In this document: positions 29,930-43,489 of the stretch, one piece after another
Position numbering within the stretch: the stretch's first letter is position 1
How the letters are laid out: the number at the start of each line of letters is the position of its first letter
DNA from: an uncultured Eggerthellaceae bacterium
GTDB lineage: Bacteria; Actinomycetota; Coriobacteriia; Coriobacteriales; Eggerthellaceae
Length of the DNA stretch: 43,510 nt
NCBI GenBank assembly: GCA_947650915.1
Contig: CANSWY010000013.1
Location: 1 to 43,510, forward strand
Direction: 5' to 3'
Position numbers and translations under genes: made by a program
Notes under the pieces: model-generated
Seen by the model: only the letters and a program-made list of their open reading frames with translations
Told to the model about the DNA's origin: nothing
Database searches by the model: none

Positions 29930-30119
29930 ACGTGCAGAAGGGACGTTCCAAATCGCACATAGCAGGGGAGCCTCCGGATGTGCAAAAGGGACGTTCCAAA
30001 TCGCACATAGGAAAAGACGATGAACACAGAAAGACTGTTCCTATGTGCAATTTGGGACGCCCCTTTTGCACATCAGGCGATCTCGCGGGTGCAATTTGGG
30101 ACGTCCCTTCTGCACGTCA
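29930..30119 (+). repeat. Long inverted-repeat element, locus 9
   Basis: Outer left arm 29930-29961 (GACGTGCAGAAGGG), inner left arm 29978-30013 (GCAAAAGGG), loop, inner right arm 30038-30074 (CCTTTTGC), outer right arm 30089-30119 (CCCTTCTGCACGTC). The outer arms match each other and the inner arms match each other at variable positions. Confidence 0.9.
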
Positions 30120-30121
30120 CA

Positions 30122-30455
30122 CCGCCGCGTTGCCGCACGGGGGCCGAAGGCCTCCCGCGCACGCGGCGCTCCCCCGCAGCAGCAAGCCGAACCCAGCAAC
30201 ACCCCCGAACCCGGATGCACCCGACCCAAAGGGCGATGGGCGCGAATGCGCCCTAGAGCCCGCCAGTGAAACTGCGTCCCGCGCTTCGCGCGGGACGCGC
30301 ACACGCGAAGCGCGCACGGCCGGTGCGCACCCCCATGCCAAGCGCGCCCACAGGGCCGCGCTTGGCATGGGGGTGCCGGCGGCCGTGCGCCAGAGACAAA
30401 AGTGACAACCCAGTGCGCTCGGCATGTGCAAAAGGGACGTTCCAAATTGCACATG
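30122..30455. repeat. 334-bp structured repeat element, copy 1
   Basis: Nearly identical (about 12 differences, no gaps) to 43156-43489. It contains hairpin A 30123-30168 (outer CGCCGCGT/ACGCGGCG), hairpin B 30238-30253 (GGGCGC-GAAT-GCGCCC), hairpin C 30274-30298 (11-bp GC stem, UUC loop) and hairpin D 30312-30390, whose core is a perfect 20-bp stem 30327-30346/30357-30376. It ends in a single left arm of the long repeat family (30423-30455). Minus-strand open frames across it differ mostly by amino-acid-changing substitutions between copies, so it is probably noncoding. Confidence 0.85.
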
Positions 30456-30456: not shown

Positions 30457-30496
30457 ATGGAGCAGGCGGGCGGAGGGGGTGAGGGCGATTCGTGGA

Positions 30497-30539
30497 GTTC
30501 CTTGGAAAATGGGGTAATCCACCACATTTTCCAAGGAAC
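30497..30539. repeat. 15-bp AT-rich perfect inverted repeat
   Basis: GTTCCTTGGAAAATG (30497-30511) and its exact reverse complement (30525-30539) around a 13-base loop. It is AT-rich relative to its surroundings, single-copy in this window, lacks a T run and lies 155 bases past the FtsX-type permease stop. The rest of 30540-30693 shows only the CGTAGC palindrome. Confidence 0.6.
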
Positions 30540-30637
30540 GTAATTTAGCCAGCAACCCCTCCACCCGCCTGCGGTCAGGTGAGGAAGAGCGGCAAGGGGG
30601 ACGAAGGGGATGCGTTCGGAAGCGCGTTCCGGGTGTT

Positions 30638-30660
30638 CGAAGGCTAAAGCCTTCGCTACG
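30638..30660 (-). repeat. CGTAGC palindrome, intergenic (copy f, third stem variant)
   Basis: Minus strand: CGTAGC then GAAGGCT-TT-AGCCTTC, a third stem version kept by paired changes. It lies 34 bases past the permease stop codon. Confidence 0.85.
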
Positions 30661-30693
30661 GGGCTTTGTTGCGATGGGCCTGCGCGGTGAAGG

Positions 30694-43066: not shown

Positions 43067-43095
43067 GGTCACAAATCCTCCGTCCCTTTGTGACC
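43067..43095 (-). repeat. GGTCAC hairpin (copy 3)
   Basis: GGTCACAAA - TCCTCCGTCCC - TTTGTGACC, a perfect stem with A-T replacing the G-C of copy 1. Upstream of the LytTR gene. Confidence 0.85.
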
Positions 43096-43155
43096 TGACA
43101 GGTTGCAGCAAGGCGCGCGCAAGCGGACCCCTCTTGCGCCCCGCCGCGCGAAGCG

Positions 43156-43489
43156 CCGCCGCGTTGCCGCGCGGGGGCCGAAGGCCTCCCGCGCACGCGG
43201 CGCTCCCCCGCAGCAGCAAGCCGAACCCAGCAACACCCCCGAACCCGGATGCACCCGACCCAAAGGGCGATGGGCGCGAATGCGCCCTAGAGCCCGCCAG
43301 TGAAACTGCGTCCCGCGCTTCGCGCGGGACGCGCACACGCGAAGCGCGCACGATCGGTGCGCATCCCCATGCCAGGCGCGCCCGCAGGACCGCGCCTGGC
43401 ATGGGGATGCCGGCGGCCGTGCGCCAGAGACAAAAGTCATAACCCAGTGCGCTCGGCATGTGCAAAAGGGACGTCCCAAATTGCACATA
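43156..43489. repeat. 334-bp structured repeat element, copy 2
   Basis: Second copy of the element at 30122-30455, same orientation. Hairpin D core is 43361-43380/43391-43410, again perfect over 20 bp. Ends in one left arm of the long repeat family, then runs to the window edge. Confidence 0.85.

Follow-up and report, generated by a model that had tools for sequence, protein, structure and literature searches.

The window analyzed here, a 43,510-bp stretch of DNA from an uncultured, gut-type Eggerthellaceae bacterium (host genome of 1.98 Mb in 50 contigs), carries two copies of a 334-bp element built as a chain of hairpins, together with palindromic repeats (REPs) and inverted pairs of these repeats (REPINs). 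The flanking gene pntB has its close relatives in uncultured Eggerthellaceae, Gordonibacter and Adlercreutzia, the top match being CANODU010000003.1 from isolate SRR13921777_bin.12. The features are as follows.

29932..29960, + strand: REP, found in the genome search
29972..30073, + strand: REPIN, consisting of REP(+) at 29972, a 34-nt loop and REP(-) at 30043
30089..30115, - strand: REP directly before copy 1
30122..30455, + strand: copy 1 of the hairpin-chain element, the 334 bp delimited by the initial annotation
30123..30168, + strand: hairpin H1 (CGCCGCG...GGGGGCC-GAA-GGCCTCCC...CGCGGCG), from the fold
30231..30260, + strand: hairpin H2, inner stem GGGCGC/GCGCCC, from the fold and side-by-side copies
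30274..30298, + strand: hairpin H3 (GCGTCCCGCGC-TTC-GCGCGGGACGC), from the fold and side-by-side copies
30312..30390, + strand: hairpin H5 (hairpin D of the initial annotation plus its base stem), from the fold and copy comparison
30391..30423, + strand: conserved unpaired tail of the chain (CCAGAGACAAAAGTGACAACCCAG...), from copy comparison
30424..30454, + strand: REP (TGTGCAAAAGGGACGTTCCAAATTGCACA type) closing copy 1, with about 995 copies genome-wide
43156..43489, + strand: copy 2 of the hairpin-chain element, 96% identical to copy 1, with the contig end cutting just after it
43458..43488, + strand: REP closing copy 2

Directly 3' of copy 1, at window positions 30463-30572, lies a nested palindrome, GCAGGCGGGCGGAGGGG...CCCCTCCACCCGCCTGC, whose interior holds an AT-rich hairpin; the palindrome turns up again beside other chain copies.

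The two copies had been described as gap-free with about 12 differences, and on re-alignment they match over 334 bp without a gap and with 13 differences. Four of these do form two base-pair exchanges in the stem of hairpin D, as had been reported: in element coordinates, the long-stem pair 209/252 changes from C-G to T-A between the two copies and the pair 220/241 from A-T to G-C. When 13 differences were placed randomly on the same fold, two or more such two-sided hits occurred by chance in 0.7% of 100,000 draws, and the covariation from copies 1 and 2 alone is suggestive, not strong. The three other hairpins, said to be invariant, are nearly so, with one change that falls in H1. The 334 bp fold far better than shuffled sequences on both strands (z -7.2 for RNA of the plus strand, -6.2 for RNA and -6.6 for single-stranded DNA of the minus strand), so folding does not indicate a strand. 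Upstream of copy 1 are REPs and upstream of copy 2 is another mini-hairpin; the 334 bp mark where two mosaics overlap and are not one unit.

A search of the host genome with the element returned more than 150 matches, mostly to its last 31 bp. These are a palindromic REP, TGTGCAAAAGGGACGTTCCAAATTGCACA. With as many as three mismatches allowed it has 505 copies in forward and 490 in reverse orientation, a total that is a lower bound, with many contigs ending inside repeats (C2, C6, C24, C28, C30, C37, C39, C50). REPs are typically arranged as inverted pairs around a 34-nt loop, forming REPINs of about 100 bp, and the pairs are spaced 65 bp throughout; 178 REPINs with a spacer of about 34 nt were tallied in the stretches of selected contigs that the analysis covered. 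Most REPs (274 of 357) lie outside crude gene calls, which were made from codon-position GC and confirmed partly by Pfam and recognizable proteins. The REPINs are flanked by GA...TC, and we found no target-site signature at them beyond this boundary. Insertion of REPINs into palindromes was considered as a general rule and rejected, the enrichment being weak (20 sites with runs of at least 5, four of them sharing one chain site, against 8 expected).

In the rest of the element, positions 1-300, hairpins are strung together by conserved linkers. The core of this chain, complete or partial, occurs at about 20 places in the host genome. A covariance-model search, a check proposed in the initial annotation, gave one marginal match (E 2.8e-4) in a congeneric sister species. 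Aligned side by side, the copies keep recognizable linkers, and the hairpins between them are swapped for unrelated hairpins, fused or lost. The inner stem of H2 is elsewhere ACGCGC/GCGCGT or CGCGC/GCGCG; the H3 slot is filled in other copies by GCGGTGCGG...CCGCACCGC, by GCGGCC-GAA-GGCCGC followed by CAGCTGG...CCAGCTG, or by an entire REPIN within a GGCC/GGCC tip; and the tip of H5 varies between a 3-nt loop, one long stem and three clustered hairpins. Two copies, C38 and C29a, are without most of H3-H5. Some tips hold a complete REPIN in the form GGCC-CTTGA-REPIN-TCAAG-GGCC, and the hairpins swapped in at one slot stay paired despite wholesale exchange of their sequence. The feature is best described as one section of an intergenic mosaic in which REPINs are combined with a GC-rich hairpin chain that ends in one REP.

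How strong the covariation in the long stem is depends on the copies compared. Four copies share the long H5 tip. In these, two-sided changes affect 5 of the 20 pairs, 97.5% of cells are paired and the covariation score of 0.308 was reached by none of 500 shuffles; with four copies, covariation in the long tip is strong. Across 12 copies the base stem of H5 covaries weakly, and the strong signal sits in the tip. Because only four sequences carry it, this signal is evidence about the stem and not about RNA. The asymmetry between G-U and A-C mismatches was tried as a test for an RNA strand and set aside as uninformative (16 versus 12 with shared events still counted). Compensatory changes are reported to be common in REPINs (PMC3116915); between copies they do not imply a structured RNA. 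That mobile DNA hairpins can show such changes is a caution for the discovery of RNAs by covariation.

The amplification is specific to the host genome. The REP has 0 copies in the congeneric sister species (G001), and across 138 genomes of the family it occurs in 6 and 3 copies in two other genera, so that the 137 genomes other than the host's nearly lack it. For the chain, too, BLAST-level comparison gives no homologous sequence in G001. This species, as the marginal covariance-model match brought to light, has its own amplified hairpin chain of unrelated sequence, with 67 matches and the same swapping of hairpins (L070 1180-1460; L144-L155), and its orientation too is linked to replication; one slot holds GGTGCTGC-GAA-GCAGCACC, GGCATTGC-AAA-GCAATGCC or GGTCCCGC-AATAT-GCGGGACC. 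The junction between pntB and grx measures 19 bp in G001, whereas in the host genome REPs and chain occupy about 760 bp there. This uninterrupted junction is one locus, and loss of the mosaic from G001 is in principle an alternative account of it. A palindromic unit, GTGCGTTGAGCCGA.TTGAGCCAAAGGAG..GAGAAATCCACTT, is conserved in both species with a different tip and usually adjoins REPs (L010 about 540-680, the end of L011, and L070 1480-1610). No match pointing to a phage or plasmid origin of the element was found, and the exact tail pattern has no occurrence in 85,000 named genomes.

The orientation of the repeats was compared with replication direction, inferred from the GC skew of contigs, which stands in for a mapped origin. 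One arm of the REPIN reads GTTCC and the other GTCCC, giving it a polarity. Of the 126 REPINs on contigs of negative GC skew, 116 have F polarity, and of the 37 on contigs of positive skew 34 have R polarity; one further stretch agrees in one of two, and overall 151 of 165 follow the skew (binomial p 3e-30, a value that overstates independence since the copies are related). The loops are polarized in the same way (134 A versus 37 B), which means that the polarity does not hang on one mutable base. At convergent and divergent sites, which have no gene direction, 64 of 67 REPINs agree with the skew, and at tandem genes that oppose the main direction 10 of 12 match replication and not the genes, both counts having been tallied by hand from the orientation table and then tested. 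The chains behave similarly: their orientation agrees with GC skew in 21 of 24 cases in the host genome and in 29 of 36 for the own chain of G001, and at convergent sites replication predicts it correctly for 5 of 6 chains and 8 of 9, respectively. Where genes run in tandem, the chain's reverse complement is found 3' of a gene at 8 of 9 sites in the host genome and 13 of 14 in G001, and the tandem chain sites of the host genome are on leading-strand genes. A 3'UTR function, considered on the strength of this gene-orientation bias, was rejected because replication direction explains it. Altogether, orientation is best accounted for by replication direction, not transcription. In the open-access literature that we searched we found no published statement that REPINs are oriented by replication.

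In biochemical work REP and REPIN repeats are handled as single-stranded hairpins. For their spread in living cells, the finding that 92% of polar REPINs are aligned with the replication fork regardless of gene direction provides a test, in a natural population, of lagging-strand insertion.

The candidate enzymes are Y1 transposases, of which the host genome has six genes. This exact REP was not found within about 1.5 kb of the six, and the four genes examined are bracketed by other palindromes, which have a GGGACG-like core; the cognate gene could be missing, or lost at a contig break. A genome of the related genus g50 (G080) has the REP GTGCAATTGGGACGTTCC[A/G]AATTGCAC on both sides of a REP-associated (RAYT) transposase gene (L038: REPs at 1421 and 2300, gene 1470-2261; NCBIfam REP_Tyr_transpos E 1.7e-18). 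This REP differs from that of the host genome by three bases or fewer, and its AAAAGGGACG version is present in G080 as a REPIN. The three proteins tested match the NCBIfam REP-associated tyrosine transposase model at E 1e-18 to 1e-22, just under the cut-off. The association of REP and RAYT is shown in this relative, and we infer that it extends to the host genome. Two further repeats were observed. Another palindrome, GGTCACAAAGGGACGGAGGATTCGTGACC, is dispersed as well and shares the GGGACG core; it lies at window positions 43067-43096 and at several other loci (L011, L015, L016). The repeat GAAGGCTAAAGCCTTCGCTACGG brackets one Y1 gene (L031 1325-1370 and 1935-1993) and also occurs in the window at about 30639-30661; together with the gene it flanks, it is perhaps a further REP/RAYT pair.

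We favor a model, to which we assign a probability of roughly 70%, in which these repeats are non-autonomous elements that spread as single-strand DNA hairpins on the lagging-strand template by the action of Y1/HUH transposases. The template of the lagging strand is single-stranded at the fork, and the palindromes would form hairpins of DNA there. A RAYT-type Y1/HUH transposase, presumably present in the host genome, would recognize these hairpins and copy or move them into other single-stranded intergenic sites, and insertion into a single strand at the fork would determine which way they face with respect to replication. Paired changes and swaps of whole hairpins would reflect a need to keep the hairpin, hairpin-templated repair and tip-to-tip DNA recombination, or both. 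We further infer that the chain itself was moved, and not only the REPIN, and that a repair step yields the paired changes. If the repeats move as lagging-strand hairpins, the features seen in the host genome follow. Y1/HUH transposases are known to act on single-stranded DNA hairpins, with IS608 and ISDra2 using the lagging-strand template (PMC6006769); TnpA-REP processes REP and not inverted REP (PMC8266576); and REP dimers inside palindromes have been reported in three genomes (PMC3733652). A non-autonomous element with hairpins recognized by a nuclease or transposase was one of the two alternatives raised in the initial annotation, and it gains support from the REPIN termini, the copy number and species-specific amplification, and also from the uninterrupted sister junction, the orientation set by replication and the near-identical REP on either side of a RAYT gene in another genus of the family.

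Growth and spread of the repeats without any transposase, through replication slippage, template switching at hairpins and lagging-strand recombination between palindromes, we regard as rather unlikely. It would accommodate perfect arms that are renewed in concert, tips swapped at GGCC/GGCC, the inversion of the loop in roughly one REPIN in five (37 B and 134 A) and a replication-fixed polarity, all of them in keeping with template switching associated with the fork. However, hundreds of REPINs of constant length and constant ends at unrelated sites need an insertion activity, and in G080 a near-identical REP flanks a RAYT gene.

The other alternative of the initial annotation, a family of conserved structured non-coding RNAs, stand-alone or in 3'UTRs, whose compensatory changes keep an RNA fold, is less likely again. 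The clear covariation in the long stem suits it, and so does the position of the chain's reverse complement 3' of tandem genes (8 of 9 and 13 of 14), as expected of a 3'UTR element. Yet the host tandem sites are on leading-strand genes and the convergent chains follow replication (5 of 6 and 8 of 9), both strands fold equally well, the congeneric species lacks a BLAST-level homologue and yields the one marginal covariance-model match (E 2.8e-4), and whole hairpins, beyond base pairs, are swapped or lost, as in C38 and C29a. Comparison with Rfam, also suggested there, gave 0 matches in the window at gathering score, and below threshold just miRNA-type matches of a long hairpin. With Rfam empty, both strands folding and replication explaining position, a conserved RNA is not needed and has no positive support; individual copies may possibly have an RNA role. 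A polarized functional DNA motif, like KOPS or Chi, with its orientation selected for chromosome handling, is highly improbable, for although 151 of 165 REPINs are oriented along replication, such motifs require a conserved reader protein, the REP is nearly absent from 137 other genomes of the family, the oriented repeat of the sister is unrelated, and hairpin and loop sequences vary.

The non-autonomous hairpin elements that we favor resemble several known systems. BOX, ERIC and NEMIS are intergenic mosaics of conserved and optional stem-loop modules, like the present chain. Unlike them, the chain has slots that are filled by unrelated hairpins, and two congeneric species have different sequences in the same layout. 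It is conceivable, if doubtful, that such chains are a distinct, undescribed class of single-stranded DNA element, with whole hairpins swapped at fixed slots, an orientation set by the fork and, between sister species, unrelated sequences in one architecture. With REPINs and BIMEs (PMC3116915) the repeats share inverted pairs of extragenic palindromes of about 30 bp, fixed length, high copy number, species specificity and compensatory changes in the hairpin; they differ in their host, an Eggerthellaceae, in their strong replication-linked polarity, in being joined to a hairpin chain and in that no cognate RAYT was found in the host genome. The GTAG tetranucleotide tag was not found at the foot of the palindrome, where the flanks are GA...TC, and we therefore class the repeats as REPIN-like and not as REPINs of the GTAG type; TIR-type repeats are likewise unrelated to GTAG repeats (PMC3733652). 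In the TIR repeats of TIRYT genes, Y1 genes lie between inverted palindrome copies that are also dispersed as dimers, and REP dimers inside other palindromes are common to both systems (PMC3733652), but the TIR families described are moderately abundant, whereas here about 995 copies occur in less than 2 Mb. Finally, IS608 and ISDra2 share with the elements described here single-stranded DNA hairpins, use of the lagging-strand template and an orientation set by replication (PMC6006769), but they encode their own transposase and these elements do not. REPIN-like repeats are already a known kind, and the replication-polarized orientation is the most interesting part of what we describe.
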